From a virus, in IMG/VR virus record IMGVR_UViG_3300025082_001471, positions 1 to 25,230 of that record: a DNA stretch of 25,230 nt, one strand, 5' to 3'. The position numbers were made by a program, and so were the translations under genes. The notes under the pieces were generated by a model. The model did no database searches. It was not told the origin of the DNA and saw nothing but the letters and a program-made list of their open reading frames with translations. Shown here piece after piece: positions 4,466 to 24,767 of this stretch; positions within the stretch are counted from its first letter, which is position 1; every line of letters begins with the position of its first letter.

Positions 4466-4504
4466 CCAACTTCGTAAACTGGGACGATAAACCAGGAGAG
4501 CTTC

Positions 4505-5233: not shown

Positions 5234-5248
5234 AAAGGCCAAAATACC

Positions 5249-6550
5249 ATGGCAGGTCAAGGCGGTGGATTTCCACTTCCCTCGGGAGCAGCGGATACCA
5301 CTTTTACTAACGGTTTTAATGCCGTCCTCAAAGACTTCTTTGAAGGCACGGTGCGAGACCATCTCAATACTCAGGTAACCCTTTTACAGCACATCGAAAA
5401 ATCAAAGCGTAGCTTTGTTGGTCGTAAGATCGTCTTCCCTGTGAATCTTCGTCGGACTTCTGGCGTTGGTGCTCGCGGAGAGAACGGAACTTTGCCAGCG
5501 GCAGACCGCCAACGATACGATGATGTCAACATTTCCGCGAAATACCTTTACGGTCGAATCGAATTAACCGGTCCGGTCATCGAGGCATCCCGTGGAGATC
5601 GAGGAGCTTTTGCTTCGGCATTGCGCTCTGAGGTCGAAGGCATGCGCCGTGACTTGCGTGACGATTTGAATCGTCAGCTTTTCGGGCTATTGCCGCGTAA
5701 GGCATCAGATGACTCCGTGATGGATCTCACTGGCGTATTAGGCGTTATTAGCGCAACGGCGTCGAGCGACACGCAGACCCTAGATGCCGGGAACGGCAAG
5801 GCGGGAACGCGCTATCTCAAGCCTGGGATGAAGGTAAGCATTTTGGCGGCAGACGGAACCCATCGCGGGTCCACGTTTATCGAGTCCGTCGATTCTGCAA
5901 ACTTTCAGGTCGTGCTGGACGCCTCAACTGCCTGTACGCAAGATGATGTTATCGTTCGTGGCGATAGTTCGGGATCCAACAGCATGAATGCCGAGTTGAC
6001 TGGTATTGCCAATATCGTTCAAGCCCAAACAACGGGCTCGTTCCAGGCAATCAGTACGACGGATTTTCCAGAGTGGGCTGCATCTGAGCTTGCAAACGGT
6101 GGGACAGCCCGCCCGTTGAGCTTGGAGTTGATGCAGTTGGCTGTGGATACGGCTGATGAGGTTGGCGGTGCGGAGCCCCGTTTGATTATGGGGCACCACA
6201 GCGCACGGCGTGAGTACATCAACCTTCTGACATCTGACGTGCGATATGCTCCCGAGCAATTGCGCGGTGGTTTCCAGAAGTTGTCGTATGCCGGCGGGAC
6301 TAACCCGATCCCAATTGAGTTTGACAAGCACTGCACGTATGGTGCGCTGTACTTTGTCAATACTGCGGACGTGAAATACTACGTTCAAAAGGACTGGGCC
6401 TGGGCTAACCGGGATGGCTCAATGATGAGCCGTGTTGTCGATAAAGACGCCTGGGAAGCATTCATGTGCTTCTACGGCGAGTTGGGCTGCGAGCGACGTA
6501 ACACACACGTCATCCTCAAAGACCTGGCAATCAGCAATACCATTTTCTAA
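5249..6550 (+). CDS. Major capsid protein, 433 aa (HK97-fold family inferred)
   Basis: Shell-forming coat protein. The N-terminal region (FEGTVRDHLNTQVTLLQHIE, then GRKIVFPVNLRRTSGVGARGE) and the long helix SALRSEVEGMRRDLRDDLNRQL are typical of the N-arm, E-loop and spine helix of large coat proteins. Residues about 185-235 (LKPGMKVSILAADG through DDVIVRGDSSGS) read as a small beta domain inserted in the core. The C-terminal third (RLIMGHHSARREYINLL; NPIPIEFDKHCTYGALYFVN) resembles the A-domain end of this family. All 30 Arg codons are CGN with none AGA/AGG, unlike the later genes, which suggests selection for high expression. The ribosome-binding site AAAGG (5234-5238) is modest. The gene follows the scaffold by 15 bases and is followed by a strong terminator. 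Confidence 0.92.
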   Translation: MAGQGGGFPLPSGAADTTFTNGFNAVLKDFFEGTVRDHLNTQVTLLQHIEKSKRSFVGRKIVFPVNLRRTSGVGARGENGTLPAADRQRYDDVNISAKYLYGRIELTGPVIEASRGDRGAFASALRSEVEGMRRDLRDDLNRQLFGLLPRKASDDSVMDLTGVLGVISATASSDTQTLDAGNGKAGTRYLKPGMKVSILAADGTHRGSTFIESVDSANFQVVLDASTACTQDDVIVRGDSSGSNSMNAELTGIANIVQAQTTGSFQAISTTDFPEWAASELANGGTARPLSLELMQLAVDTADEVGGAEPRLIMGHHSARREYINLLTSDVRYAPEQLRGGFQKLSYAGGTNPIPIEFDKHCTYGALYFVNTADVKYYVQKDWAWANRDGSMMSRVVDKDAWEAFMCFYGELGCERRNTHVILKDLAISNTIF

Positions 6551-6559
6551 TTTAGGTTT

Positions 6560-6587
6560 GGGGGGCATGAAGCCCCCCTTCCTTTTC
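6560..6587 (+). terminator. Intrinsic terminator after the major capsid gene
   Basis: A perfect 7-bp G/C stem, GGGGGGC (6560-6566) pairing with GCCCCCC (6572-6578), with a 5-base loop ATGAA, followed by the T-rich stretch TTCCTTTTC. It lies 10 bases after the capsid stop. All genes continue on the same strand, so it is probably leaky and lowers transcription of everything after the capsid gene. Confidence 0.85.
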
Positions 6588-6593
6588 ATTCAG

Positions 6594-6608
6594 TATCCCT
6601 TCGGGGGG
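6594..6608 (+). promoter_or_regulatory. UUCG-capped mini-hairpin before the next gene
   Basis: CCC-TTCG-GGG (6597-6606) forms a short stem with a UUCG loop, one of the most stable RNA tetraloops, and the flanking T/G can add a wobble pair. It sits between the capsid terminator and the GGAG ribosome-binding site (6617-6620) of the gene at 6630. It may protect the 3' or 5' end of an RNA or help termination. The stem is short, so chance is possible. Confidence 0.35.
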
Positions 6609-6629
6609 AAAACTGTGGAGTGATGAACC

Positions 6630-7226
6630 ATGATTAAAGATCGAAACATTGGATATAAGTACAAGACCGAATTTATGTCGGCGTACACCTTCAACTTTTA
6701 CGAGTTGGCAACGCACATCAAGGGAACCATCGGTGGCGCTGCAAAGCTGACGGAGATTGGTGCGCTGGGCGTAGTGGGCCCAAAGCTCGATGCCGTAGGT
6801 GAGTGGGCTCGGACAACCTTCCCGGTTCCAAGCTATTGGGACACGGAAAACAAGATTTTTGTGCGCTGCATCTGGTCTGACAATGGAACGGCTGGAACCG
6901 AAGATATGACGGCTCATTTTGCTGTATGGTATCAGGAGAAAGCATACGGCGCGGCTCCGACAGCAGCCATTGGAACTACCGCGCTGGACAGTGTGATTGT
7001 GGCAGACAAGCACTCTGGCTCGGCAGACACCATCCAAGCCACTCCGTGGGGCGCGATTAATGCTGACTCGATTGCATCGGCTACGGACTACCTCACGGTG
7101 GACGTGGAGCTTGCAGCGGACGCCAACGACCTCGCCCCGGTCTTGATTGGTATTGAGTGGGCCTACGTTCCGAAGTTGACCAGCGGTTCGCAGGTTAGTG
7201 ACCTAGCCGATCCGACTGATGCGTAA
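6630..7226 (+). CDS. Probable capsid decoration / minor head protein, 198 aa
   Basis: No family was recognised by motif. The product is beta-rich and soluble, with alternating hydrophobic strands (NKIFVRCIWSDNG, DMTAHFAVWYQ, DYLTVDVELAAD, PVLIGIEWAYV). It is rich in Ala, Gly, Thr and Asp in the middle (GAAPTAAIGTTALDSVIVADKHSG). It is the first gene after the major capsid protein, a common site for decoration or head-completion proteins, and has GGAG at 6617-6620, nine bases before the ATG. The TAA stop overlaps the next ATG by one base. A secondary possibility is a head-tail joining protein. The function is inferred from position and beta-sandwich-like composition only. Confidence 0.6.
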   Translation: MIKDRNIGYKYKTEFMSAYTFNFYELATHIKGTIGGAAKLTEIGALGVVGPKLDAVGEWARTTFPVPSYWDTENKIFVRCIWSDNGTAGTEDMTAHFAVWYQEKAYGAAPTAAIGTTALDSVIVADKHSGSADTIQATPWGAINADSIASATDYLTVDVELAADANDLAPVLIGIEWAYVPKLTSGSQVSDLADPTDA

Positions 7227-7732
7227 TGGTACTCACTGAGCGACAATGGCGCGACATCAAGCGCATCAAGTGGAGCGATGCTGAATCTCGTCGTATCCGC
7301 GAGCGTGTGCATGATGACAAGCTCATTGTCGGTTGGTGTGGAAAAGAGAAGCGATGGATGCTTGCTCGGGTGGTTCCTGCGACTGTGCATATGAAGTATG
7401 GTGCAAAGACAATCGCTACCTCCGAGCAAGCACCCTTCATTTGGAAGCGGTGGGAGACCGACGATGGGTTGGCGCTCCACATTCGAGATCCAAGGCTTAT
7501 ACCATATATCCAGCGATGTGACCTGTGGCGACAAGGCGGCCAGAAGTACATGCTTCAGTTCGATCATGCGGAATGGATTGAAGAGACGAAAGAGAAAAGC
7601 GAGGGCGATGAGCTTGAGTACGCCGCCAAGCAGGCCTTTGATCTAATCAAGCCGCTCGCGAAGAACAAGGTTGGATACATTCCCAAACACCCCGTATCCA
7701 CGAAATGGTTCGGGCCGACCTCCTGGAGATAG
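7226..7732 (+). CDS. Hypothetical neck-position protein, 168 aa
   Basis: Unrecognised. It starts on the last base of the previous stop (TAATG). The first 40 residues are basic and Trp-rich (RQWRDIKRIKWSDAESRRIRERV). A mixed beta region follows (KLIVGWCGKEKRWMLARVVP; DGLALHIRDPRLIPYIQRCD), then a charged helix (EWIEETKEKSEGDELEYAAKQAFDLI) and a basic C-terminus. There is no catalytic motif, membrane segment or signal. It lies between the decoration-like gene and the adaptor candidate, where many podoviruses carry small head-completion or neck proteins. The role is unknown. The next gene's GGAGA ribosome-binding site lies inside its last codons. Confidence 0.7.
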   Translation: MVLTERQWRDIKRIKWSDAESRRIRERVHDDKLIVGWCGKEKRWMLARVVPATVHMKYGAKTIATSEQAPFIWKRWETDDGLALHIRDPRLIPYIQRCDLWRQGGQKYMLQFDHAEWIEETKEKSEGDELEYAAKQAFDLIKPLAKNKVGYIPKHPVSTKWFGPTSWR

Positions 7733-7735
7733 CAA

Positions 7736-8434
7736 ATGGCAACGGTAAACCTAACCAGAGCCCAGGCAAAGACACTTGCGAAGACTCTGATGGACGAGAA
7801 GGGTGCGCTCTTTTGGACAGACGCCCAGATGAACGCCCTGTTTGACGAAGCCAATCGAACCGTGTGGCGAATGCTGGTCAAGGCCAATCCGGGGCACTAC
7901 CACACCAGCACGGACTTCGCCTGGCCGGCTGACACTGAAATCCAGGACATCGTCTCCGATTGTGGGGTCGCGGCTGTGCCATACAAAATCCTCGGCATTG
8001 AGAGCAAGGAAACCGCAGGGAGTGTAACCTCAGCCAACCTGCCAGCCAAATGGAAGCCGATGATGTTCCAGGACAGAACGAAGTTTCTGCAAGACTCTTC
8101 GCCGTACTGGGTCCCGAGGGGGCGCTACTACTGCCTGAGAGGCACCAAACTGTTTGTGGCACCACTCCCAGGCGAGGCGCTGCAATGCACCATCTTCTAC
8201 ATCCAGATGCTAGACAAGGTGACGAGCGATGCAACCGAGTGCCTGGGCGGGATGGCAGAGAGCTTTCATGATTCGGTCGCGTATTGTTTGGCGTGGCTGA
8301 TGAACTCAAAGCAGAATGGCCAGAACCCCACGATAGTCCGGCTGTGGGAAAGCTCGAAGCTGGAGATTGAGCAGCACGCAGAGGAAATCAATGCAGACGA
8401 GCCTCGGCAAGTGCGCTATATTGGGCACCACTAG
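7736..8434 (+). CDS. Head-tail adaptor / connector candidate, 232 aa
   Basis: Probably binds the portal from outside and seals packaged DNA, as P22 gp4 or T7 gp11 do. The N-terminal part is helical with the pattern TDAQMNALFDEANRTVWRML (residues about 25-44), which resembles the alpha-helical core of phage connector proteins. A beta insertion follows (WVPRGRYYCLRGTKLFVAPLPGEALQCTIFYIQ), and then C-terminal helices (ESFHDSVAYCLAWLMNSKQN; WESSKLEIEQHAEEIN). This helix, beta-insert, helix layout is common in such adaptors, which often carry the short stretch of gene-product coordinates followed by a nozzle gene, as here. GGAGA precedes the ATG by 6 bases. The TAG stop is part of the next gene's ribosome-binding site (TAGGAG). 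The assignment rests on layout and order. Confidence 0.65.
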   Translation: MATVNLTRAQAKTLAKTLMDEKGALFWTDAQMNALFDEANRTVWRMLVKANPGHYHTSTDFAWPADTEIQDIVSDCGVAAVPYKILGIESKETAGSVTSANLPAKWKPMMFQDRTKFLQDSSPYWVPRGRYYCLRGTKLFVAPLPGEALQCTIFYIQMLDKVTSDATECLGGMAESFHDSVAYCLAWLMNSKQNGQNPTIVRLWESSKLEIEQHAEEINADEPRQVRYIGHH

Positions 8435-8437
8435 GAG
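8432..8437 (+). promoter_or_regulatory. Stop codon fused to ribosome-binding site (TAGGAG)
   Basis: The TAG stop of the adaptor candidate supplies the first bases of the AGGAG ribosome-binding site of the nozzle gene, 5 bases before its ATG at 8443. Terminating ribosomes would sit on the next initiation site, so reinitiation is likely. Confidence 0.75.
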
Positions 8438-8442
8438 CTTGG

Positions 8443-10530
8443 ATGTCGAAGGTTATCCCCATACGTGGTCCGTTCCCAGGGGTTGAGGAGCGCGAGAACG
8501 CACAGAAGCCGGAGCATGCCTCCGTCTCTATCAACATCGATTACAGCCGGGGGTTCATCGAGTCACGCCGTGGGTTTGAGAATCGACTGAATGGCATCGC
8601 AGTCAAAAGAGCGCAGGTACATCACTTCGTCTCATCCCATGGTGAGGAATACCTGCTCCTTGTTGGGCCGAAGGCGAATGGCGATATCATGTTCTTGCCC
8701 TTGTCCAAAAACGGGCAGTACCTCGTCAAGGAGGGCTCAAACTTCACTGCGGGGCAAGACCTAACCGCAGTATTTGGTGAGCCGAACAATCCGGAGTTTC
8801 GGTGTAGCTTCGTTGATATGCTCGGCCCAGAGGATACTGATGGGGATGGAGAGCCTGACACGGCTGCAAACGTATGCCTTGTGACAACCAAATACGCCAC
8901 GTATGTCTTCGATCCAACGTATTACTCTGAGTTTGAAATGAACAATACGATGCTCACGAGACAGCAGGCCGCGATAGTCCGAGCGTATTGGATATCACCG
9001 CCAAGGGGCGATATCGCCGTAGCGCATCAGCAGGCTGTTTTCTACGCTGGCTTCCGGCGGGGCGAGACAGTGACTCTGTCAGACCCACTTGAGGATGCCC
9101 CTGACTTTTTGGGGGTGGCGACAGGAAAGCACGACAAGTCGATGAAGTCTCTTGAGCCAGATTTTATTGCCTGGTCGGATTTGTACGACCCCTTCGCGAT
9201 TCAGAAGGACAGCTTTACCGCCATTGAGCCCGGAGAGAAGGTTACCGGGATGATCCCGTTTCAGAGCAATCTGGTGATTTTCTCAGACAAGGCAATCTAC
9301 CTCCTTGTCGGCATCATTGGATCCCAAACCCCGCTAGTAATGCAAAAGGTCGTGCATGGCATCGGCTGCGTTGCCCCGGACAGCGTGGTGAACATTGGTG
9401 ACTCGATACTCTTCATGTCTCACGATGGCATATACGCCTTTGTCGGAGGAACGAGTCGGCTGCAAAAGACCAAGGGCATGGTCCAGAAGGTAAGTGAGCC
9501 AATTGGGTCACTGTGGGGCGAGTCAACCGCGTCTCATTCCGCCCCGAGATACATGTCACACTTTCTATCAAATGCTGGATGGCCATTCAAAATATCTGGC
9601 GGTGGGCAGCACCTGACCCAAGCCCTCCATATCCCCGGTCGAAACGAGGTCTGGTTTTCTATCCAGTGCCAGATGCATGCGCCATTCAGCTTCGCTCTTA
9701 CCGCTGTGTATAACTACCAGCTATCCGCATGGACCTTCTACATGAAGGGGTCCGCCGTCTATGGAGGAAACAGCGGGAGCCAGAACCCGAAGCAGATTGG
9801 CTCGTGCATGTTTAGCGGCTGCGTCGTCAGGGAGCGCAATGTTGAAAGGGTGTTTACGACCAGCGCAGACTCGGAGCTTCAGGAGCACGGGCTGGAATAC
9901 GACCACTCAAAAGCCCTGGATAACAACAACCACCCGATACCAGTTTGCTGGCTCAGTGGCCGCCTTTTCAGAGAGAGCGACATGACGACGGTCTATCGGC
10001 CAGTTCGCATAAAGATGCTCTCTAGAGGCAGGAGCTACCAGGGAGTCGCAAACATGGGCCCGGCGGGCAGAACATTCACGACCCCCGTAATGATGGCCAC
10101 GGGCGAGGAGTCTCATTGCGACCATGACGCGGAGGGGCCAACGGCAGTTGATGCTGTTACAGACCCAGACCGGCAACAAACGACAGCCGGGATACCGATG
10201 CACCCGAACCCGATGTCCAAGTCGTTTTGGGGCGATGCAAGCACCGTGCAATCGACGGTCACAAGCTCCTCGCACATCGACGGCGTGGACTTGGCTGGTG
10301 CTGTGACGTATGGAAACAATGGCATAGCCCCGCCGCCCATGGAATGGGGTACAGCCAAATGGATGGAGCGGGACTGGTTCTCCTCCACCCCGCAGTGCGG
10401 TAGCGTGCGCTCGCGCTCGTGCAAGGTCGGGTTTTTGGCATGGCCAGTGAATACGGCGGCTGGCTGGATACCGTCCGGACTTGTAATCCAATCGTTCTCA
10501 CTTGAGGCGGACGTGGGAGACCAAAGATGA
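8443..10530 (+). CDS. Tail nozzle / beta-propeller tail protein, 695 aa
   Basis: Probably forms the lower part of the short tail, in the role of T7 gp12 or P22 gp10. The central part holds the repeats and motif I associate with phage propeller tail proteins: PFQSNLVIFSDKAIYLLVG (about residues 271-289), then VVHGIGCVAPDSVV, then GDSILFMSHDGIYAFVGG. N-terminal strands include RRGFENRLNG and EEYLLLVGPKANGDI. Residues 131-139 read DTDGDGEPD, a DxDxDG calcium-binding loop. The C-terminal third is Cys-, Ser- and Gly-rich, without a clear domain (GAVTYGNNGIAPPPMEWG). The length is close to T7 gp12 (794 aa), longer than P22 gp10. It follows the adaptor candidate directly and precedes fibre genes. 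The end overlaps the next start by ATGA. Confidence 0.75.
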   Translation: MSKVIPIRGPFPGVEERENAQKPEHASVSINIDYSRGFIESRRGFENRLNGIAVKRAQVHHFVSSHGEEYLLLVGPKANGDIMFLPLSKNGQYLVKEGSNFTAGQDLTAVFGEPNNPEFRCSFVDMLGPEDTDGDGEPDTAANVCLVTTKYATYVFDPTYYSEFEMNNTMLTRQQAAIVRAYWISPPRGDIAVAHQQAVFYAGFRRGETVTLSDPLEDAPDFLGVATGKHDKSMKSLEPDFIAWSDLYDPFAIQKDSFTAIEPGEKVTGMIPFQSNLVIFSDKAIYLLVGIIGSQTPLVMQKVVHGIGCVAPDSVVNIGDSILFMSHDGIYAFVGGTSRLQKTKGMVQKVSEPIGSLWGESTASHSAPRYMSHFLSNAGWPFKISGGGQHLTQALHIPGRNEVWFSIQCQMHAPFSFALTAVYNYQLSAWTFYMKGSAVYGGNSGSQNPKQIGSCMFSGCVVRERNVERVFTTSADSELQEHGLEYDHSKALDNNNHPIPVCWLSGRLFRESDMTTVYRPVRIKMLSRGRSYQGVANMGPAGRTFTTPVMMATGEESHCDHDAEGPTAVDAVTDPDRQQTTAGIPMHPNPMSKSFWGDASTVQSTVTSSSHIDGVDLAGAVTYGNNGIAPPPMEWGTAKWMERDWFSSTPQCGSVRSRSCKVGFLAWPVNTAAGWIPSGLVIQSFSLEADVGDQR

Positions 10531-11345
10531 GTTTCCTAAGAAGCCCGTCACACGTGACCACGAAGACGTTCAAGGTCAGAAGAAACCCGCAGGGCTACTT
10601 GTTCCCGTCCGTTCCGCCGGTCTCACCGGCAGCGCAGGGCTCGATCAGACACCTTGGAAGAGACAATCAGATACGCGCATTGCAGATGCACATAGCTAAC
10701 CTTGGCCCAATCGTCACGCCAGACGTTTCAATCTATGACGCCATAGCCACGCTACCGAAGGGCGGCGGAAGGCTCATCTTATCGGAGGGCAACTGGGTCA
10801 TGCGGAGCGGGATTACCACCACAAAGAAGGTGCATATCTACGCGGCGTGCCCAGGGGCTACCAGGCTGGTTCGAGACCAGGACATCGATGAGCCCATGAT
10901 AACCCTGGCAAACAACTTCTCGACGATACACGGGGTAACATTTGTTGATTCCGATGACACTAACCTTGTGCCGGCAGTGAAGATCACCGGAGACTACTGC
11001 ACGGTGGATGACTGCACATTTGAAAATGTGGGCACCGGGGTTGAGATGGTCGGAAGTTACTGGAACACCGTGTCGAATTGCATTTTCCAGGCATGCGAAG
11101 AATATGGGGTTAGCGTCACCGGCTCACCAATCATGCACTCAATCCTGAATAACAAGTTCATTCTCTGTAGCCCCGCATCCGGAGGGTGGCTGAACATGGC
11201 ATCCGGAGTTGACAATGCCCTGATATGCGGGAATGTGTTTGATTATGCCGCCGGAACGATTGTGTATACAGCGGGCAACAACCAAACGTCAGCAGAGATT
11301 GAATCCTGCAATGCGGTGAAACTCGCTAACATTACGAGGAGCTAG
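10527..11345 (+). CDS. Short beta-helix tail fibre / tailspike-like protein, 272 aa
   Basis: The region from about residue 66 on has the entry pattern of pectate-lyase-like right-handed beta-helices (IYDAIATLPKGGGRLILSEGNWVM). It continues as short coils with repeated small-residue turns (TLANNFSTIHGVTFVDSDD, VKITGDYCTVDDCTFENVG, WNTVSNCIFQACEEYGVSV, MHSILNNKFILCS, NALICGNVFDYAAG). The first about 60 residues are basic and Pro-rich, probably the virion-attachment segment. At 272 aa it is much shorter than tailspikes such as P22 gp9 (666 aa). Catalytic residues could not be assigned, so it may only bind the receptor, or digest a surface polysaccharide. It is coupled to the nozzle gene (ATGA) and ends with two consecutive TAG codons (11343-11348) directly before the next ATG. 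Confidence 0.75.
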   Translation: MSFLRSPSHVTTKTFKVRRNPQGYLFPSVPPVSPAAQGSIRHLGRDNQIRALQMHIANLGPIVTPDVSIYDAIATLPKGGGRLILSEGNWVMRSGITTTKKVHIYAACPGATRLVRDQDIDEPMITLANNFSTIHGVTFVDSDDTNLVPAVKITGDYCTVDDCTFENVGTGVEMVGSYWNTVSNCIFQACEEYGVSVTGSPIMHSILNNKFILCSPASGGWLNMASGVDNALICGNVFDYAAGTIVYTAGNNQTSAEIESCNAVKLANITRS

Positions 11346-13788: not shown

Positions 13789-16044
13789 ATGGCACAGATA
13801 CCACACATACCTGGAGTCCCGCAGCCCGGTGGTTACTTGACCCAGGTGGCTGCAAACAGGGCGCGTAGGAACGAGAGGGCCTCCCAGCCGGGAGTATGGG
13901 AAAAGGCACTTGCACAGGGGCTCGCCGGGGGGCTGTCTGGGGGCCTTGGCGCACTAGGCGGAGAATGGGCGAAGAGTCTATTTGCGGATGACGATCTAGA
14001 ATTTGCCTCAGATCTGTCAGAGAAGGCCAACGCGGACATCGAGATATTCACGGAGCCAGACCCAGAGACCATAAGCCAAGAGGGCTTGCAGCGCAGGCTA
14101 GATGGGTTGCTAGCGAGTGACGAGGTGGCCAGTGGCGTTGGCGTTGGCCGGGGTCAAGAGCTTGGAGAGCAGAAGAAGGGGCGCTTTGCGATTGATAAGA
14201 TTGAGGGGGTCCCTGACTGGACGAAGAAGCGAGACGCTCCTGCTCCCGATGAGGTCGAGGGCCCTGGCCGAATGACAACCATGAACAGGGCCATTCTCGC
14301 CATGCAGCAGAAGGCTGGCACAGAGCAGGGACGGAAGGAGCTTCACCGGCAACTATACCCGGCGGTGCCGGATCCGAAAGCCCCAGACCGAGCGCCACGA
14401 GGACGCAGATTTAAGAGCGCGAAGTACCAGGCGCTCTGGCGAAAGAATGTGGCCTTGACTCGGCGTGCAGAGCAAAAAGAAATTCGAGAGATGCTGACCT
14501 CGGCAAAGGGCGTTGAAGCGCATAATTTGAACGTCGAGAAGGAGCGGGAGGATAACAACGCCAAGGCAACCGCCAGGACCGGGAGGGGTGCGCCAACGCA
14601 CAGTCGCGAAGGTTTGGTGTGGATGGCTGGCACGAAGTGGCTGGCCTCTTTGGTCTACGAGCGAGGCCCAGACGGCAAGTGGGTGCTGAAAAAGGAGAAT
14701 GGGGTTGTGACTCCGAGCTTTCCTAACGGGGAAAAGGTCGGCAAGGAGGAGATGGATCTCATTACTTCGGCATTCGTTAAGACCCCTGAAGCTCAGCAGA
14801 AGCTTGATATTTTCTTGCGAACTGGGCTCGATAGTAACCTCAAGGCCAAATTGCCAGATGACGTCTTGAGTAGCATGAAAAAGGCCATGGGAAAAGCTGG
14901 TCCGGATACAGTGCTACTTGGCGGCAAGACCCCGGACAGGGTCGATCTCGTGGAAGCACCGCACCCGTTCACGATCTCAGGGGGGGTGCATACCTACGTC
15001 AAGGCCGAAGGCGCAAAGTCAGCAACAGCGAAGTCGAGCGAGAAAAGACACCACCTCACAATCGAGAACCTCATTGACCTCTTAGATGACCACTCGAAGA
15101 AAACAGCCACCAAGGGCCTGAGATGGGATAGCGATAACCATAAATGGCTTGATGTGTCTGTGTCATTCACAGACAGCGAGGCGGCTGACATCCAGAAGGT
15201 CGTCAGCTTGTGGGATGAGATGAAGGGGAAGGCGGGTGATGGGAAAAATAAGGCAGCAAACAGGATAAATAAAAGAATTACAAAGTTTTGGAGAGGAAAA
15301 CGTGCTCTCCGCAAAAAGATGGTTGAGTTGATACAGTATAACAATACAACCAAAAAGGATGCACCGACCACGCCGCCGGCAACAGCAGCGACAACGGAAG
15401 AGAAAAGAGTGGAGACACAGGTCGGGGCGCAGTCGAGGCTATCGAGTAAAGATTGGGTTTCGGATATACTCAAGGGGGTGCCCATGCGGATAGCCGAGGG
15501 TGAGAGCACGAACTTTGTTGGGGAATCCGGGATACCCTGGACTCCGCCAGACGGGTCCCCGCGCCACATACCGCTGAAGGCGCTACGTGGAAAGACCGTG
15601 GTTAGGGGGGGGAATGTTACCGCAAGGTTTAACCCCACCCTCAAAAAACAGCTAGGCGACGACGGAGTGCTGGAGGTGTCCGAGGCCCTTGCGAAGTTGG
15701 TTGCCGCAGAAAGGCACAACCAGAAGCAGGCGTGGGCAAAGCACCTGAATAAGACCAGGAAGACAAAGGTAAAGATCGAAAAACCGGTGAAGGAAAGCGT
15801 TCTAAAAAAGATCCGGACGTTCCTTGAGGGCCAGGGCATTACATACGGCACCACACTAAAGGGCTGGGCATCCCCGCCCACAGCCATGCGGACACCAGGC
15901 CCAGGGCAGGGCGACGACCCAGTGAGGAGACTGAGCCAGGGGAATCAGGCGCTTCACGCACGCCTTATGGACATGGCCAGGCGGGGTGAAATCTCGTGGC
16001 AGAGCGCAAAGCGGAGATTCCTCGGTCAAGCGGATCGGGCATAG
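13789..16044 (+). CDS. Internal virion / ejection protein 2, 751 aa
   Basis: Middle member of the ejection trio, and the same size as T7 gp15 (747 aa). Near the N-terminus, after a basic stretch (ANRARRNERASQPG), comes a glycine-rich segment GLAGGLSGGLGALGG (about residues 44-58), a glycine-zipper type that could insert in membranes. The rest is highly charged and mostly helical, with Lys/Arg-rich parts (KFWRGKRALRKKMVELIQ; HNQKQAWAKHLNKTRKTKVKIEK) and a Thr/Pro/Ala linker (TTPPATAATTEEK). The final 60 residues are Arg-rich and soluble. I see no lytic transglycosylase or protease motif. A run of eight G bases (15605-15612) lies in frame. A consensus ribosome-binding site fused to the upstream stop sets the start. 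The function is inferred from the layout. Confidence 0.65.
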   Translation: MAQIPHIPGVPQPGGYLTQVAANRARRNERASQPGVWEKALAQGLAGGLSGGLGALGGEWAKSLFADDDLEFASDLSEKANADIEIFTEPDPETISQEGLQRRLDGLLASDEVASGVGVGRGQELGEQKKGRFAIDKIEGVPDWTKKRDAPAPDEVEGPGRMTTMNRAILAMQQKAGTEQGRKELHRQLYPAVPDPKAPDRAPRGRRFKSAKYQALWRKNVALTRRAEQKEIREMLTSAKGVEAHNLNVEKEREDNNAKATARTGRGAPTHSREGLVWMAGTKWLASLVYERGPDGKWVLKKENGVVTPSFPNGEKVGKEEMDLITSAFVKTPEAQQKLDIFLRTGLDSNLKAKLPDDVLSSMKKAMGKAGPDTVLLGGKTPDRVDLVEAPHPFTISGGVHTYVKAEGAKSATAKSSEKRHHLTIENLIDLLDDHSKKTATKGLRWDSDNHKWLDVSVSFTDSEAADIQKVVSLWDEMKGKAGDGKNKAANRINKRITKFWRGKRALRKKMVELIQYNNTTKKDAPTTPPATAATTEEKRVETQVGAQSRLSSKDWVSDILKGVPMRIAEGESTNFVGESGIPWTPPDGSPRHIPLKALRGKTVVRGGNVTARFNPTLKKQLGDDGVLEVSEALAKLVAAERHNQKQAWAKHLNKTRKTKVKIEKPVKESVLKKIRTFLEGQGITYGTTLKGWASPPTAMRTPGPGQGDDPVRRLSQGNQALHARLMDMARRGEISWQSAKRRFLGQADRA

Positions 16045-16047
16045 CGC

Positions 16048-19000
16048 ATGCCAGATAACGACAAATCCTGGTGGAACGACCCGGTTAAGATGGTGCGATG
16101 GCTCAGGGAGCCGGTCCATGAGGTTGGACAGTGGGGAAGGAAGTGGATGGATGAGTTCGAGTGGGGGTCAAAGAATCAGCCCCCGGAGGCAACTCCCACC
16201 CCCGTGGCGGGCACAGGAGACGTCGAGAAGGCCGCAGACCTTTTCACGAACCCGACCTGGAGGGCGCTCTGGATGGGCAAGCCGCCGTCCACCGAGAGGC
16301 AAAAGCGCAGCGGGAGGGGCCTGCCTGCGGCAACAAGCAAAGACATCCTTGCGGCTGCGGGGCAGTTTAAGCCGGGCGGCGGATTGCTGCCACTTGCCCC
16401 TGAGTCAGCCAAGGCGGCTGCCAAGGCGATAGATCCAACCCAGCACCTTCCTGGCGAGATGCCCCCTCCAGCCAAACCCCCGGCGTGGACATACGACGAG
16501 CCGCCGATTGGGGGCTTCACTGACTACAGAGTCCCGGGGACGTCGGGCAGGGCGGCCCCTCCGGATAAGTCAGCGCGAAGCGCAGGCTGGCCATTTGATG
16601 CGGATGGCGGGGTCCAGGGCGGGCTATCCATGCGCGAGGTCGATCAGATCGCCGATAGAGATCGAGGCAAAATGAGCCGCAGTGAGTATAGGGATGCCTC
16701 AGTAAAGGCAGCCCGCTCAAAGGCCATATCGGACATCAAGAGCCCACCGACAAGGACAAGTGAGAGCGGGAGGGAAATCGAGAAGCTATTCAGTGACCCG
16801 CGATGGGAAGCTGCCGGGAACAATCCAGGAGCCCTGATGCAGGAGTTTCGGGACAAGCTGGGTGAGTTGGAGAAGTGGCGCTGGGAGAGGAAGCCGTTTC
16901 CGTGGGACCTGTACCGCGAGAAGAAGCGGGCCATCATCCTGAGTTACCGGCAAAAATACACGGACATGCTCACCGATACATTCGGCGTGTCTGTCCACGG
17001 GATGCCAGGCAGAAAACACGCGGCGAGGGTCGTAGTCCCGGTACGTGACGCCGAAGGGAAAATTCAGAAGTTCCCCAACACCGATGTAGACGAGTACCGG
17101 GCAGCCACCCCGTCGAAGTTTATCCCGGACGAACTGAAGTTGAGTACAGATGTTGGCCCTGAGATTGGTGCTCCGCTCAAGGTGAGGGAGTGGACGGCCC
17201 AGACGACCTTCGGGCCAAAGGTAATGACAGAGGAGTTCACCCCAGCCGCACTCACAAGCGAGGCACAGGTTCACCCGGACGTCAAGTGGGTGTTTGACAA
17301 AGACACAGGCATCCGCCTGTCACTCCCAGAGCAGCACAAGAAAGAGGGCAGGGTGCAGGGCCTTCAGGCCAAGCTCGATGAGCTAGTGGCCGCCAGGGCA
17401 GAGTATATCAAAAACCCGCTGTCCACCGAGGGGAGGACGATATTCACCGCGCATGCTGTAGGCGACCTGGCGGGCGTCCCACCCACTGAATACGCCGCGC
17501 CGGCACGCCCGCCCGAGCTACAGACGGAGGAGTTGAGGGACTTCCCAAGCGACCCCTACGCAATGGGCCGCCTCCGGGAGTTCGACCGCCAGATAGAGGC
17601 AGCCGAGATGAGCATCCTCCAGGAGGAGGAGGGGCCAGGCGATGTCCTGATGAATGTCCGGCCAGGTAAGGAGTTGAAATACGCGAAAAGCGTTCAAGTG
17701 AAGGGAGATACCGAATACTACCTGCCGATACTCGGCATAACGGTAACTGTCCCAGGGAACCATGAGGTCTGGCTAGCCCCTCATGATGCGGACTTCTATC
17801 TATCGAAGAGGGGCGGCAACCTTCCGCCAGAGGAAGTGATACTGGGTCTCCACCCGATGAACCCGTTCGGGAGGGTAACTCGCGGCGAGATGGTCGAAGC
17901 CCAGATGGAGGGCGGGTATCGGGTTGCCGGGGCCCTCCACCCAGCAGAGAGCCTGTACCACGATCTAATGCTCACCTACAACCCAGGGGCTGCGGTCTTA
18001 GGTGCTGGGACTACTGTTGCAGATTATTGGCGGGGCGTGGAGGGCGACGAGGAGGGTGACCTGCTGAGAAAGCGCCACGGCGCTCGCCATTATGACCCGA
18101 GAGAGCAGAGCCCGCACTGGATGGCGAACTTTGGCAGATGGGCCGTTCAGTTCCTCCCGTCCCTGATGGAATCGGAAGTCATTATGCGGGCCGGGTTGGG
18201 TCTTAGCGGGTCGCAAGTAAAGTATTGGCGCGGGGGACTTCCGCACGATGTTCAGTTCGGCGCTGCTTACGACCTGTATGGCTTTGACCCAACGATGTTC
18301 GAGCTTACCGGAGGCTCCAAGTCTGACCTGAGCCTGGGCGATGCCCTCCTGGAGACCACCAAGAACACTCCGGAAAGCGGGTGGCACCTAATCTCCGGGC
18401 TGGCGACGATGGCGTGGCAGGGCGCGTATGGGACCGGCAAGCCAGAGCATGCGTATGAGAAGTCAAAAGTCCTTGGCCAGACGCTTGGAGACATGTATGG
18501 AGCCATTGGCCACATCGGCTACGGCGTCCTGATGGACCCAAGGGTGGCCATCCCGCATGACCCGGTTGCCGCTGCGCTCATCTTTGGCATGACGGTGAAG
18601 CCAGTCGTCAAGGGTCTCCAGGCCAGGAAGGGGTACAAGAAGGCCACTGTTGACCGGGCAGTCATCGAGGAGATGAAGGCGCTGAGCAAGATGGAGGAGG
18701 GGGCCGGCGCTCCGCCAGAGCTTCTTGAGGTTGCGGAGGCTTATAAGCAGGTAGAGGCTGCGGTCAAGCACCGTGAGACTCGATCGATTTTAGACCAGGA
18801 GTTTGCGGAGCTAGCCAAGCACAAGGACTGGCCGGCGCTTCGTGACGCTATAGAGGCAAAGAGGCGGGTCGTAGCGAACAGCCAGGCCAAGGTGATGCGG
18901 TCCAAGGGATTCGCTCGCCGTGAAAGGCGCATCCTCGCCAAGCTCCAGAAGGGCCTCCGCGCCTTAGAGACGAAGGCTGCCCTGCTGAGGGAGAAGGCAA

Positions 19001-22000
19001 TCGAGAAGCTTGTGGTCCGCAATGAGCGGCCAGTGCATGATGTGGGGCAGGCAGCGACCGCAAAAGATATAAGGACCGGGCGCAAGGCAGAGCCAAAAGC
19101 AGAGAGGCCCATCGTCGAAAAAGACTTTGAGTTCCGAAGGCTTGAAAAGGCAAAGGCGGAGATGGTCGAAGCCGAGGCCGCAATGGACGCCCTGGAAGCG
19201 AAAGCAACAGAGAGTGGGCTATGGTCACCGGAGTCCCGGATAAGCCTTGGCCGCGTCCAAAAGGATGGCAGCAGAGCGTTCCCAGAGTACGATGCGCTTT
19301 CGGATCGGTGGCGCAAGGCCAACGACGAGTTGTTTGCCGCCGAGGAAGCAGGGGCTGCCGCAGAGGTTAAGTATGGCCCGAAGCCCGCCGCCAAGCCTGT
19401 TGCAGAACCCGCTGTTCAGGTCGAGGCAGCCCCCAAACCCGTCGCTCAGGTCGAGGCACCCCCCACAGCCCCCGCCCCTGCAGTGAGGTCGCGACTTGTG
19501 GGCGAAACGCTGGAGCCAATCCGGCCCAAGACCAGCGCACAGACAGTGCCGGAGGGGGCGGGGGTACTGTCGGTGGCAGATCGGGGATTTGTTGAGCGCG
19601 TCACTGAGTCGATTGGCGGTGCCAGGCGAGCGGGCCAGCCGGTGTGGGGCGCAGAGGTTCGCTTTGCGGAGCCGCCCGCGCGCCAGCCTGGCTGGGTTAA
19701 GTCAACGAACGAGGTGGGTAGGGAGTACTGGGTCCGGGAGACTGCCCGATACGACATCGAGCATCTTCGGTATGGGAGAAATACCCTCGACGTTCCTCGC
19801 ACAATGAGAGAGGGGCCGTACCGCTTCATGGCGGGTAACGACCCGGTTAAGATGGTGCGATGGCTCAGGGAGCCGGTCCATGAGGTTGGACAGTGGGGAA
19901 GGAAGTGGATGGTGGACCGCTGGAAGAACCTCCCGAAGGACTTCCAGGTCTTGGTCAACAAGATTCACACAGACCTCCCCCGGGCAATCCTGTCGGCATC
20001 CAAGCTCATGCCAATAGCGACCCCATGGTCTGCATTTGAGATGACAGGGATTCTGTACAACCGCTTCATAAGAGATGCCCCTGGCCTTGGGTACATGCGG
20101 TCCGTGGTCAGGTCCCCACGAAAGCTCCTTCCGGCGACCGTTCAGGCCATCATCGAGGAGGGCAAGCAGAACAAGTGGGCATATGAGTGGGAAGTGGATG
20201 CCCTCATGAAGGACCTCCCGAAGACCGTGGAATGGGGAGGTAAGTCATACGATGTTCGACCCAGGCTGAGCCAGCACTTCAAGACGGAGTACAGAAACAC
20301 CTCATTCACATGGGACGATCTCAGGCTCATTCACTCGCTCAATGCCACACAAATACAGCAGATGAAGGGAGGCAGAGCCCTGCCACCATACGGGAAGCCG
20401 GGCGGAGCGATGCTCGGAGGCGACCTCGGGGCCCGAGTAAAGGGCGCTCCGGCAATATCTGGGATGATTGGGCGGCTGGAGACTCGCCTTGCCAACTCTC
20501 GCAATGGCCGGATCGACGTGTACAGGTACAACCCGGACAAGCTGACCAAGGACGGGAAGCGCGGGGCATGGGAGATAGATCCAGAGCTAAAGGAGTTCCT
20601 CCAGGTAACGGACAAGAAGAGATTCAAGGACATCCAGGACCAGGTAAAGTTCGCAAACGAATACGGCAGACCGCTGAGCCGCCGGATGCACGAGGTCATC
20701 AAGGAGGCCCACGAGCTTGGGATTGTTGACAACCCAAACACTGCAATGCAGTGGTACTGGCCGTCCATCTTTGAAATCAAGGGAAATCTAGAGACGTGGT
20801 TCAGGAAAAAGCACAACAAAAGCAAGCCAGAGACGAGAAAGGAGGCGGAGGCTGCCGCAGACTACGTCGCAAAGGCCTTCCGAGAGCTTGAAGGGAAGAG
20901 GAACGCCACGGTTCGTTCGCTGACAAACAAGCTGCGCCAAGAGAACGTGCCCATAGAGAAGCGAATCGAGTACTACGGGCAGGTAGCCGACCTGAGCAAG
21001 GAAGTCTATGGCGGCTTTACCTCGATAAAGAACTCTGTCGAGGCGATGAAGACGTACAACAAAATCAGCAAACTAACTGACCAGTCCTTCTTGCCGCAAG
21101 GTGCGCCGCCATGGATGAAGCCAAGGGTGATTGTTAGATCGACCCCCGCTCCAGGCTACAAAAAGATGCCGAACAAGGCTCTGTTTGAATACCTTGGGAA
21201 AAGGCGAGTTCACAAAGAGCCCGCAAATCTCGCCAAATGGAAGAGGGAGGTGGACGCGAGTGGGAAGGCGTACTGGGAGACCAGGGACTTCGTCAAGATT
21301 GAGTCGAAGCAAAGGCGATTTGCAGACCTCGCCAACAAGTATGTGCTGGAGGATGTCTACTGGGACATCCAGTGGACGGAGGCAATCCAGGCGGCTTCAA
21401 AGGATTGGCTTGCTGGGTACGTGCGCCTCATGAAGGGCAATTTCACCATCCGGCACCCTGGGGTTACAGCGAGGAACTGGCTTTATAACGTCCTGGTGTT
21501 TGCGCCATATGGTGACATCAACCCAATGAACCCGGCGCGGTGGAAGCTCTATGAGATGATGCTTCGCGATACGGCGGTTGCAAAGAAAAGCCCGCTGTAC
21601 GAGGCAGCGTACAAGACGGGAATATTCAAGAGCAACTTCGCCAACGTCGAGGGCCTTGTGGAGGCCCAGGGGATGGCCATGCGGGGCATCTTCCAGAATG
21701 GCGAGGGGCTCTTGCATGCACTGCTGGAGGCATCGATTGGCAACAAGTTCATCAAGGAGCGAGCGGGGCGTGCCGGCGCGTTCAAGCAGCTTTTCCAGGA
21801 CTACCCGGGAATGCTGTACGGGTGGATGGACTCATCGTTTAAGTATGTGAGGTTCCTCCGGTATCTAGAGCAGGAGGGCTGGCTGAAGAAGAACCCTGCT
21901 ACCAAGCAGTTGGATCTTTACAACAAGGAGACTCGGAAGTTCGGGGATCTCACCGGGACGACGACTATTTTCCAGGAGTTTACCAACAAGGCCATCGACC

Positions 22001-23616
22001 AGTTCGGAAATTACGAAACGCCCCGGTTCACGGATATGTTTTCCACGCCAATGCACGTTCCTGGTCTGACGGCTGGCGTATCAAAGGCCCTGGGCCTAAT
22101 ATCGCCCAACCAGTTCATGAAGTTTATGGCATGGTCAATCCCGCAAACCGTTGAGATGACATGGCGGAATCCGATACTCTCATCCCTTGCGACACAGGGA
22201 ATGGATGCGCTTACGGAGGCGTTTTCAGAGGGCGTCGGGCTGGACATGGATCGGTTTGGCTCCATCCTTGATGTCAATACAAAGTACAATCGGCTCGTGC
22301 GTGCCTTCCCTCGGGACCTGTCTGTAGACAAGGAGTTGCTGCTAGGTGGGCGGGATCCTGTCAGGATTGGACGGAAGACATACCGCCCACCAACGGAGGT
22401 TGCTGGCCGCAAGGTGCGCCTCAATAGCGCTGGGGAGGCGGAGTTCCATGTCCAGACTGCCCCTGGGTTCGACCCGGAGGGGTTGACTGGGGAGCGCCCG
22501 GCCTATGGCGGAGAGCGAAAGGTAAGGCAAACGGGAGTCTGGCTGACGTTCAAGCAGATTGGAAACAAGGATGCCTTTGAGGCCCTGACTGGCCTTAGGG
22601 GCGATAAGGCGGAGCGAATCCGCAAGAGGATATTGGACACCGTCCCGCTGAAGGGCACGTTCCCCAACATCCGATGGATGACGCCGGGGTCCGAGTTCGT
22701 TTCCCCCACAAAGCCTGGGGAGCGAGAGACGGCGGCGGACTGGGCTCAGTTCTTCATGGCTCCGCAGGGTTGGCCGATAAAGTATCTGTACATGGCGCTC
22801 GGCGGACAGGACCCGACCACAGGCAAGCTTGCCCTGGACCCCACATCCACCGTTGATGATTCCAGTTGGAGCCAGATAAAGAGGTTCGGGTGGACGTTCG
22901 TCAGAGATCACCTCGGGATTGTCGGCAACATAATCGAGGACTATGCGCGGGTAGATAGCGGCGAGGCGGACTGGCTCGGGCGTCCGTACAAAGACCGGTA
23001 TCTGCAAAGGTACACGGGCCAAAGGACAGACACTCACACAACAGAGGACAAATTCAGGATCCGAACGAGACAACTCCTTCTGATTGTTGCCGATGACGTC
23101 AAGGGAATGACGCAGTACTGGCGAAAGAAAACAAAGGAAGCGGGTCTCCGGACAATGGGGTTTGACGAGGTTGCAGACATGCTAGAGGCAACCAACGAGG
23201 GGTCCGGCAAGAAGCTAAGGGAAGTTGTTGAGCAGATAGAGCACGACCGGATGAGAAAGCTTTTGGCGCAATACCAGGCAGATATAATGGGCCTTGGCAG
23301 CTCATCTGAGAAGCATCTTATCATCCGCCGCATGCTGGAAGACTTGCTCACCTCTAGCATGGGGGCGAAGCCCTTCAAGGCAAGGGCAGTCAGGCTATTG
23401 TCCATGATGCGGGAAGATGCCGATGAGTGGAACAAGTACATCCGAGCCAAGACAACCGACCCAGAAAAACTCAGGCGACTGGAGGAGGAGGCGGCGGCTG
23501 ACCTCAAGAAGGCCGCAGAAAAGTTTTCTCCAGGGCCGGAAAGTGGTAAAACAGAATGGCCACCCCCGCCTGAGCGGAAGCCAGCGCGGACTGATTTTAT
23601 TCCACCAAGGAGATAG
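16048..23616 (+). CDS. Giant internal virion / ejection protein 3, 2522 aa
   Basis: Probably the largest internal protein, in the place of T7 gp16 (1318 aa) but twice its size. Residues 10-34 (NDPVKMVRWL...) are repeated exactly at 1264-1288. Order: Pro-rich, likely disordered residues to about 220; charged domain; Gly/hydrophobic region about 600-860 (TLGDMYGAIGHIGYGVLMDP; DPVAAALIFGMTVKPV); Lys/Glu helices about 870-1105; Ala/Pro linker about 1110-1148 (VAQVEAPPTAPAPAV). The second half, after residue 1264, contains a region about residue 1800-1825 (FTIRHPGVTARNWLYNVLV) resembling the RN motif of large polyvalent phage proteins; the tail is Pro-rich and basic. No HExxH or clear transglycosylase motif was found. 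The start has only weak GGG upstream. About half of its early Arg codons are AGA/AGG (11 of the first 19). Confidence 0.65.
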   Translation: MPDNDKSWWNDPVKMVRWLREPVHEVGQWGRKWMDEFEWGSKNQPPEATPTPVAGTGDVEKAADLFTNPTWRALWMGKPPSTERQKRSGRGLPAATSKDILAAAGQFKPGGGLLPLAPESAKAAAKAIDPTQHLPGEMPPPAKPPAWTYDEPPIGGFTDYRVPGTSGRAAPPDKSARSAGWPFDADGGVQGGLSMREVDQIADRDRGKMSRSEYRDASVKAARSKAISDIKSPPTRTSESGREIEKLFSDPRWEAAGNNPGALMQEFRDKLGELEKWRWERKPFPWDLYREKKRAIILSYRQKYTDMLTDTFGVSVHGMPGRKHAARVVVPVRDAEGKIQKFPNTDVDEYRAATPSKFIPDELKLSTDVGPEIGAPLKVREWTAQTTFGPKVMTEEFTPAALTSEAQVHPDVKWVFDKDTGIRLSLPEQHKKEGRVQGLQAKLDELVAARAEYIKNPLSTEGRTIFTAHAVGDLAGVPPTEYAAPARPPELQTEELRDFPSDPYAMGRLREFDRQIEAAEMSILQEEEGPGDVLMNVRPGKELKYAKSVQVKGDTEYYLPILGITVTVPGNHEVWLAPHDADFYLSKRGGNLPPEEVILGLHPMNPFGRVTRGEMVEAQMEGGYRVAGALHPAESLYHDLMLTYNPGAAVLGAGTTVADYWRGVEGDEEGDLLRKRHGARHYDPREQSPHWMANFGRWAVQFLPSLMESEVIMRAGLGLSGSQVKYWRGGLPHDVQFGAAYDLYGFDPTMFELTGGSKSDLSLGDALLETTKNTPESGWHLISGLATMAWQGAYGTGKPEHAYEKSKVLGQTLGDMYGAIGHIGYGVLMDPRVAIPHDPVAAALIFGMTVKPVVKGLQARKGYKKATVDRAVIEEMKALSKMEEGAGAPPELLEVAEAYKQVEAAVKHRETRSILDQEFAELAKHKDWPALRDAIEAKRRVVANSQAKVMRSKGFARRERRILAKLQKGLRALETKAALLREKAIEKLVVRNERPVHDVGQAATAKDIRTGRKAEPKAERPIVEKDFEFRRLEKAKAEMVEAEAAMDALEAKATESGLWSPESRISLGRVQKDGSRAFPEYDALSDRWRKANDELFAAEEAGAAAEVKYGPKPAAKPVAEPAVQVEAAPKPVAQVEAPPTAPAPAVRSRLVGETLEPIRPKTSAQTVPEGAGVLSVADRGFVERVTESIGGARRAGQPVWGAEVRFAEPPARQPGWVKSTNEVGREYWVRETARYDIEHLRYGRNTLDVPRTMREGPYRFMAGNDPVKMVRWLREPVHEVGQWGRKWMVDRWKNLPKDFQVLVNKIHTDLPRAILSASKLMPIATPWSAFEMTGILYNRFIRDAPGLGYMRSVVRSPRKLLPATVQAIIEEGKQNKWAYEWEVDALMKDLPKTVEWGGKSYDVRPRLSQHFKTEYRNTSFTWDDLRLIHSLNATQIQQMKGGRALPPYGKPGGAMLGGDLGARVKGAPAISGMIGRLETRLANSRNGRIDVYRYNPDKLTKDGKRGAWEIDPELKEFLQVTDKKRFKDIQDQVKFANEYGRPLSRRMHEVIKEAHELGIVDNPNTAMQWYWPSIFEIKGNLETWFRKKHNKSKPETRKEAEAAADYVAKAFRELEGKRNATVRSLTNKLRQENVPIEKRIEYYGQVADLSKEVYGGFTSIKNSVEAMKTYNKISKLTDQSFLPQGAPPWMKPRVIVRSTPAPGYKKMPNKALFEYLGKRRVHKEPANLAKWKREVDASGKAYWETRDFVKIESKQRRFADLANKYVLEDVYWDIQWTEAIQAASKDWLAGYVRLMKGNFTIRHPGVTARNWLYNVLVFAPYGDINPMNPARWKLYEMMLRDTAVAKKSPLYEAAYKTGIFKSNFANVEGLVEAQGMAMRGIFQNGEGLLHALLEASIGNKFIKERAGRAGAFKQLFQDYPGMLYGWMDSSFKYVRFLRYLEQEGWLKKNPATKQLDLYNKETRKFGDLTGTTTIFQEFTNKAIDQFGNYETPRFTDMFSTPMHVPGLTAGVSKALGLISPNQFMKFMAWSIPQTVEMTWRNPILSSLATQGMDALTEAFSEGVGLDMDRFGSILDVNTKYNRLVRAFPRDLSVDKELLLGGRDPVRIGRKTYRPPTEVAGRKVRLNSAGEAEFHVQTAPGFDPEGLTGERPAYGGERKVRQTGVWLTFKQIGNKDAFEALTGLRGDKAERIRKRILDTVPLKGTFPNIRWMTPGSEFVSPTKPGERETAADWAQFFMAPQGWPIKYLYMALGGQDPTTGKLALDPTSTVDDSSWSQIKRFGWTFVRDHLGIVGNIIEDYARVDSGEADWLGRPYKDRYLQRYTGQRTDTHTTEDKFRIRTRQLLLIVADDVKGMTQYWRKKTKEAGLRTMGFDEVADMLEATNEGSGKKLREVVEQIEHDRMRKLLAQYQADIMGLGSSSEKHLIIRRMLEDLLTSSMGAKPFKARAVRLLSMMREDADEWNKYIRAKTTDPEKLRRLEEEAAADLKKAAEKFSPGPESGKTEWPPPPERKPARTDFIPPRR
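16075..16150 (+). repeat. 76-bp exact direct repeat, copy 1
   Basis: Begins AACGACCCGGTTAAGATGG and is identical, base for base, to 19837-19912. It encodes residues 10-34 of the 2522-aa protein. The bases just outside differ (G before, A after here; T before, T after in copy 2). It contains a 13-base palindrome GGCTC-AGG-GAGCC at 16100-16112. Confidence 0.95.
19417..19476 (+). repeat. 30-bp imperfect tandem repeat, two units
   Basis: CAGGTCGAGGCA begins at 19417 and again at 19447. The two 30-base units agree at about 24 positions. They encode the Ala/Pro/Val linker repeat QVEAAPKPVA-QVEAPPTAPA in the middle of the giant protein, next to the boundary between its halves. Confidence 0.7.
19837..19912 (+). 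repeat. 76-bp exact direct repeat, copy 2
   Basis: Second copy of the 76-bp element at 16075-16150, 3762 bases (1254 codons) further on, in the same reading frame. It encodes residues 1264-1288. It lies 9 bases after an in-frame ATG at 19828, so this copy too sits near a possible gene start. Confidence 0.95.
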
Positions 23617-23620
23617 GAGA
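23614..23620 (+). promoter_or_regulatory. Stop codon fused to ribosome-binding site (TAGGAGA)
   Basis: The TAG stop of the giant gene overlaps AGGAGA (23615-23620), eight bases before the ATG at 23629. It is the third stop/ribosome-binding-site fusion of this type in the window. Confidence 0.7.
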
Positions 23621-23628
23621 ATAGATAG

Positions 23629-24009
23629 ATGGCAAATTCACGATCAATGTATATGGAGAAAATTGATAACCTGGCCGATGACGAGACGGTGACATTTACC
23701 CCTCCGTTCGGGGCGCACACCTGGCAGATACGGCTGTTCACAAACGGCCACGCCACCACATCCGTCAACATCCAGACCAAAGACGAGGACGGCGAATTTA
23801 TTCATGTTGATGGCTCCCCGTTCCAGGGCTCTGGCGGCACAGACGACTTCGATGCGAGTGGCGAACTTGAGCTTACAATCGATTCCACAAATCCATCGAT
23901 TCGCGTTGATGGCGATGTCCTTAACGCAGTAATGAAGGTCAAATGCAAGGCCTATCGGACGCTGGAAGATGTCGCAACCAGTGGCTACACAGCCATACTT
24001 AAGGACTAG
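23629..24009 (+). CDS. Small beta-rich virion protein, 126 aa
   Basis: Unrecognised. It is a compact, beta-rich sequence (VTFTPPFGAHTWQIRLFTNG; SVNIQTKDEDGEFIHVDGSPF; GELELTIDSTNPSIRVDG; VMKVKCKAYRTL), acidic and soluble, with no signal or membrane segment. The pattern recalls small virion decoration or fibre-cap domains of phages, but no named family could be assigned. It follows the giant ejection protein by 12 bases and precedes the next gene by 9, so it is probably cotranscribed with both. The ATG is chosen because it follows AGGAGA at the right distance. Confidence 0.7.
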   Translation: MANSRSMYMEKIDNLADDETVTFTPPFGAHTWQIRLFTNGHATTSVNIQTKDEDGEFIHVDGSPFQGSGGTDDFDASGELELTIDSTNPSIRVDGDVLNAVMKVKCKAYRTLEDVATSGYTAILKD

Positions 24010-24018
24010 GGGCATACC

Positions 24019-24492
24019 ATGGGAACAACGAGATACGGCACACGCCTTAGTATAAAGAAGAGTCAGCTAGATGCCATAGGGGGCTCATCTGTAGACAATG
24101 AGTCTTTCCGCGCCGATCAGGTTTACATGAACATGGTCAACAAAAGCGGTGGCACCCTGGCCAAGGGAATCATGGTTCGCCATGTGGATGGATCCGTAAC
24201 AGGAGTTCAGGAATCGTCGAGTACGACCGGGAAGGCCACCATAGGTGTTACGCTTGCAAGCTCTGCCGATGACGCTGCGGTTCAAGTCGCCTACGGCGGC
24301 AAGGTTCAGGTGCTTGTCAAGAGCGGACAAAACATCAGCGAAGGGGCGGTGTTCAAGCCCCAGAACGACGGCAAGGCTCAGTCTGGTGGTGGTTCAAATG
24401 CCATGGGATACTTGCTGGAAGATGGGGACTTGTCTGCCGATGGCGGTGACGAGCTTTTCTGGGCTGCCATAGTAATAGGGGAGCAGGGATAG
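24019..24492 (+). CDS. Decoration / head-fibre-like protein, 157 aa
   Basis: Reads like the DUF2190-type capsid decoration or head-fibre proteins: NKSGGTLAKGIMVRHVDGSVTGV, then TIGVTLASSADDAAVQVAYGGKVQVLV, then ISEGAVFKPQNDGKAQ and MGYLLEDG. This is the G.V......v.......iGv......g..v.V...G.v.vlv..g..i..G pattern of that beta fold. It is short and soluble, with no signal. The start ATG lies 9 bases after the previous stop; GGGG just upstream serves as the ribosome-binding site. The position between the internal protein module and the lysin, far from the major capsid gene, is unusual. I have not run a comparison, so the family is inference. Confidence 0.6.
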   Translation: MGTTRYGTRLSIKKSQLDAIGGSSVDNESFRADQVYMNMVNKSGGTLAKGIMVRHVDGSVTGVQESSSTTGKATIGVTLASSADDAAVQVAYGGKVQVLVKSGQNISEGAVFKPQNDGKAQSGGGSNAMGYLLEDGDLSADGGDELFWAAIVIGEQG

Positions 24493-24494
24493 AG

Positions 24495-24767
24495 ATGAGC
24501 ATAGAAACAGCACTATCGGCAATCCGACGCATAAACGCCCTTAAGGAGTTGGCTAAGCACGGAATTGACACAGGCAGTGAAATTGAAGAATGCGAAGGAC
24601 TGCTAGACCTCTGCGTAAAGCGGCTGAAGGCACTCCCAGGCATTGAACACTATCGCAAGCGTAAGCGGTGGAAGGGCTCGTTCACGGACAAGCAGAAGGA
24701 TGCCATCCGAGAGCACATGAAGACTCTCTCTGACGCAAGCATAGCGGAAGAGTTGTTCTCGCAATGA
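24495..24767 (+). CDS. Small helical protein, 90 aa, unknown function
   Basis: Unrecognised. It is highly charged and almost wholly helix-prone (ALSAIRRINALKELAKHG; SEIEECEGLLDLCVKRLKAL; KDAIREHMKTLSDASIAEELF), with two Cys residues and a basic middle (HYRKRKRWKGSF). No membrane segment is present, so it is not a classical holin. The ATG follows the previous stop by 2 bases, with AGGGA upstream. The end overlaps the amidase start (ATGA), so it is probably translated with it. It could assist lysis, or be a regulator or virion protein; the sequence does not say. Confidence 0.65.
   Translation: MSIETALSAIRRINALKELAKHGIDTGSEIEECEGLLDLCVKRLKALPGIEHYRKRKRWKGSFTDKQKDAIREHMKTLSDASIAEELFSQ

Follow-up and report, generated by a model that had tools for sequence, protein, structure and literature searches.

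A probable templated insertion: in-frame copy of a downstream segment near the 5' end of a giant gene in an uncultured phage

Deletion or phase switching between direct repeats that lie inside one gene is a known system. Templated insertions, or short dispersed duplications, of great ape and cancer genomes are another; in these (PMC7954356, PMC8421209), a short segment derives from a separate template that is retained, a close relative keeps the empty site, and the joints have little or no microhomology. A third is the chimera of multiple displacement amplification, which, in one study (PMC1855051), arises by strand switching within one molecule at short or no homology, over 85% of such chimeras being inverted with deletions. 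The locus described here is like an intragenic repeat system in having two in-frame repeats in one gene, but its second copy appears to be new and is not common to a close relative, and the short form was not seen. It has the features of templated insertions listed above, although it lies in a phage gene; unlike those, it is in direct orientation, has its template 3.76 kb away, is in frame, and is known from one metagenome contig. From amplification chimeras, with which it would have strand switching within one molecule in common, it differs in being direct and in that nothing was lost. No comparable phage case was found among the literature matches listed, which does not mean that phage events of this kind are absent from the literature.

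The window, by which we mean the whole stretch of DNA that was analyzed, is a virus record of 25,230 bases. Within it, the segments 16075-16150 and 19837-19912 agree at all 76 positions in direct orientation and have unlike flanks (G versus T on the left, A versus T on the right). The offset of 3762 equals 3 x 1254, and both copies stand in one frame of a giant open reading frame, each encoding NDPVKMVRWLREPVHEVGQWGRKWM (Table 1). Our re-comparison thus confirms the original prediction of an exact 76-base repeat with unlike flanks and an offset divisible by three within one gene. The pair is the sole exact direct repeat of at least 16 nt in the window; with copy 1 taken out, the longest exact direct repeat is 15 nt. 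In first-order Markov resamples (n = 100), the longest repeat had a mean of 14.4 nt and a maximum of 19 nt, so the 76-base match reflects a single event and not background.

Table 1. Positions of the giant gene, the two repeat copies, the joints of the insert, and a candidate start (window coordinates; G001 and G005 are relatives described in the text)
Feature	Position	Strand	Basis
Giant gene, 2522 codons, no family match	16048..23616	+	ORF and profile searches
Left joint; no bases common to source and target	16074..16075	+	window/G001 alignment
Copy 1; apparently derived, adds 25 codons (net 75 bases) in frame behind codon 9	16075..16150	+	comparison with G001
In-frame ATG at 3' end of insert, behind AAGGA-N5; candidate new start	16147..16149	+	anti-SD test
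Right joint; at most 2 shared bases, GG	16149..16151	+	window/G001 alignment
Copy 2; apparent native source segment	19837..19912	+	present in G001; diverged in G005

A close relative, IMGVR_UViG_3300024517_000038 (G001), was found via the first 36 bases of the repeat. In the viral contig scans, which may omit records very near the window, this 36-base piece matched that one other contig, once, at the native copy; in genome contigs it had no match. G001 holds the whole giant gene in its long form (2409 aa) with only one copy of the repeat, and it is 97-98% identical to the window over 16149-16537, 16542-19055, and 19426-23623. Copy 2 is in place there, window positions 19780-19960 being identical at 181 of 181 bases, flanks included. 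At the copy-1 site, the window reads CCTGGTGG, then 75 bases, then GATGAG, and G001 reads CCTGGTGGGATGAG: TGGTGG is followed directly by GATGAG, and window position 16074 joins 16149/16150 with the flanks aligned. Relative to this empty site the window has a net gain of 75 bases; the last of the 76 matching bases, a G, also occurs in the target. Correspondingly, the G001 protein begins MPDNGKSWWDEFEWGSK, and the window protein has the repeated peptide between SWW and DEF. An empty site this clean points to a recent copy-and-paste mutation, or to a sequencing artifact, and not to a genetic switch.

Exact templates were sought in the window and G001 for all window/G001 indels of at least 12 nt. 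Copy 1 has a template of 74 nt (automatic cut); the other indels had no long template, the longest exact match elsewhere being 15 nt, and many of those listed are alignment fragments from ~12.7-14.2 kb and 23.6-24.8 kb of the window, where the two records align poorly. That the copies are identical constrains the age of the event little, because even at the full window/G001 divergence of 2.4%, 76 bases stay unchanged with P = 0.16.

More distant relatives bear on the direction of the event. Six further contigs were retrieved via the capsid protein, and a relative of the giant protein is present in two (G005 and G006) and absent from four. G005 (IMGVR_UViG_3300030107_005999), with 37-39% amino acid identity and a frame that stays open for 1987 codons until the contig ends, has a diverged copy-2 region, GDPLSITRFLRNPPEPLLSLGKKWIENRW. 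Aligned to the empty form of 17 residues, its N-terminus (24 residues, to GSK) gives a score of 15, a weak match (shuffle p 0.08); aligned to the insert-bearing form of 42 residues it gives -4, and its likeness to the insert itself was not significant (p 0.25). The G006 giant gene (1947 codons, 25% identity over part) is too distant for the copy-1 site to be judged. The empty site in G001, together with the copy-2 region and N-terminus of G005, suggests that copy 2 is most likely old and copy 1 new, a polarity drawn from one close relative and one weak N-terminal match. The earlier idea of a recent duplication of the gene's 5' end therefore holds as to duplication and is reversed as to direction: the 5' copy appears to be the new one, pasted from mid-gene. 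Nor do the relatives have unrelated sequence at both sites, which had been proposed as a sign of misassembly; copy 2 is native, and the copy-1 segment is merely absent in G001.

With an exact copy, a retained source, the empty site of G001, and an open frame all observed, we consider it likely that copy 1 is a recent derived insertion, templated by the downstream source and truly present in the phage lineage. About 75 bases would have been copied from the source, which itself was retained, and placed in the same orientation 3.76 kb upstream, right behind codon 9. In a double template switch, at phage replication or in the repair of a break, the growing DNA end would have strayed from its template near codon 9, used the downstream segment as template, and then resumed synthesis where it had departed. 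Two template switches are the most likely mechanism, since they fit a direct copy, a source that is kept, the lack of a target-site duplication, and near-zero shared bases. Microhomology at the switch points is minimal (0 bases on the left, at most 2 on the right), so the joints bear no clear signature of template switching, a point against this mechanism. The event would postdate the split from G001, and the insert would exist in the real phage and not only in the library. The insertion could be tolerated since the frame stays open, 75 being a multiple of three and the insert free of stops; accident alone would give such a length together with same-frame placement in 1 of 9 cases. On the simplest reading of the sequence, the protein would undergo a near-neutral N-terminal lengthening by a Trp/Arg-rich, possibly amphipathic stretch.

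Two kinds of mobile element were considered and found not to fit. An insertion sequence or transposon would leave a target-site duplication of several bases, and the joint here is clean with at most 2 shared bases. A diversity-generating retroelement does not fit either: adenine-specific changes between the copies were sought and none was found, there being 0 differences in 76 bases.

The main rival is that copy 1 came from a chimera, made in the library by amplification strand switching or in assembly, and that the real phage has an empty site like that of G001. We regard this as unlikely, yet it deserves to be taken seriously. The insert is seen in one assembly only; no second contig with it was found, and a 27-base pattern across the right joint matched no viral contig, in scans that may omit records very near the window. 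Near-blunt joints are also compatible with a chimera, as is a repeat length of 76, given that short-read k-mer sizes are of this order. Against these points, assembly requires reads across each new joint, so that two independent chimeric junctions 75 bases apart would probably have to predominate. The length and frame, moreover, fit coding, at the chance of accident given above. Everything else is arranged as in G001, so that no misjoin is seen. Finally, the copy is direct and nothing was lost, as opposed to the mainly inverted chimeras in PMC1855051.

A broader proposal would make the templated insertion one instance of a pattern, in which the N-terminal part of this family of giant phage proteins is a landing zone that repeatedly gains short in-frame amphipathic Trp/Arg pieces, copied from mid-gene in the window and unrelated in G001, with the piece or its ribosome-binding site altering the start or the membrane/portal contact. 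We hold this to be improbable. G001 does have 23 extra codons (the ESPLRLGIRKAVKWAGDQIPRWVEES region) at window 16536-16541, a different N-terminal site of the giant gene (L011, reverse strand, positions 5042-5116 of the reverse complement); no template for this segment was found in the window or G001. The insert segment ranks 2-3 among the most amphipathic 18-mer clusters of its protein on two scales, and the G001-only segment ranks 6 and 8 in its own. With 11-mers, the window segment drops out of the top eight on one scale and the G001 segment on both. A mobile 25-codon motif common to both was suggested by likeness to the eye and was discarded, since local alignment of the G001-only segment to the repeat and to homologues of the repeat gave shuffle p values of 0.21-0.79. 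The amphipathicity, like the start signal discussed below, was noticed after the fact and may serve as a lead only.

The repeat could instead be old, the ancestor having had both copies, G001 (and G005) having lost copy 1, and gene conversion having kept the copies alike. Gene conversion can indeed maintain the identity of two copies, and MAFFT alignment of the whole proteins set G005 residues in the insert columns, contrary to the N-terminal scores. G001, however, would need to have lost exactly the repeated unit without flanking repeats, and the G005 N-terminus is far too short and better fits the empty form, weakly as noted. We find this history very improbable.

Still less credible, to the point of being nearly negligible, is the recombination switch of the original prediction, in which the repeats would serve the deletion of 1254 codons and so yield a 1268-aa short form. 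The arithmetic of that product is correct, and the repeats are direct, in frame, and long enough, direct repeats of such length sufficing for phage recombinases. Copy 1, however, is absent in G001, so the repeat pair is not common to the close relative, which has the long gene with a single copy. The short form was found in none of the three relatives that hold the gene (G001, G005, and G006, of which G005 is cut by the contig end). The proposed switch is thus unsupported; occasional deletion in this one phage is possible, and nothing points to a function.

Equally negligible is the notion that the insert was kept for its Shine-Dalgarno-like AAGGA-N5-ATG as a second in-frame start (MDEFEW...): its anti-SD duplex reaches -7.6 kcal/mol against -4.6 at the annotated start in a simple test and its ATG at 16147 is tied third of 74 in-frame ATGs, but a stronger candidate lies downstream at 16273 (-9.8), leaving little gain, the signal was found after looking, and the source codon is ATT in G005. 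An internal start at copy 2 was rejected as not conserved, for the same codon.

The observation itself is confirmed. Subject to a small but real risk of artifact, the locus illustrates a mutation type already known, copy and paste, with source, target, and empty site all legible in a gene of an uncultured phage, and the tempting but wrong reading of a long/short switch is removed. Such cases show how phage genes might lengthen by in-frame pieces. If the insert is real, the same signature across many close phage pairs would measure how frequent such events are.

The giant gene product is probably an internal virion or ejection protein, to judge by gene position. It had no family match at E 0.01 in PHROGs or Pfam and no match among solved structures; the collection of annotated phages had no match by DNA or protein, and genome contigs contained no relative. 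Among the other window genes, one matches a P22-like portal in Pfam above the cut-off, PHROGs give matches to a major head protein and a terminase, and an SU10 adaptor is matched below the cut-off. AlphaFold, run on the copy-2 source region from an alignment of 4 rows, gave a mean pLDDT of 37.7, too poor for use. Between the window and G001, pN/pS is 0.43 (71 synonymous and 101 nonsynonymous differences in 2370 codons), and the large length differences inside the gene (+75, -69, and +333) are all multiples of three; these three frame-keeping changes and the pN/pS value indicate that the reading frame is under constraint. The largest falls at window 19056-19425, in an Ala/Glu-rich linker that exceeds its G001 counterpart by a net 333 bases (111 codons); the linker also has an imperfect 30-base tandem repeat at 19406-19465.

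Around the giant gene, the similarity to G001 varies. The gene just upstream (window 13969-16074) is 86% identical, compared with 97-98% for the giant gene; the small genes 3' of it (23624-24764) have no blastn match in G001, and the last window gene, from 24765, matches again at 88%. Both ends of the G001 contig (L010 start, L012 end) align to the same 143 window bases, 10806-10948, and an exact end repeat of 20-399 bases was not found on G001. In G006, the gene directly upstream of the giant gene has a 46-base exact repeat with a 30-base offset (L025 3225-3300). A further record, IMGVR_UViG_3300006926_000632 (L013 1-7396), has 7396 bases at 99.97% identity to window 2746-10141, which indicates nearly the same phage in a second record; it ends before the giant gene.
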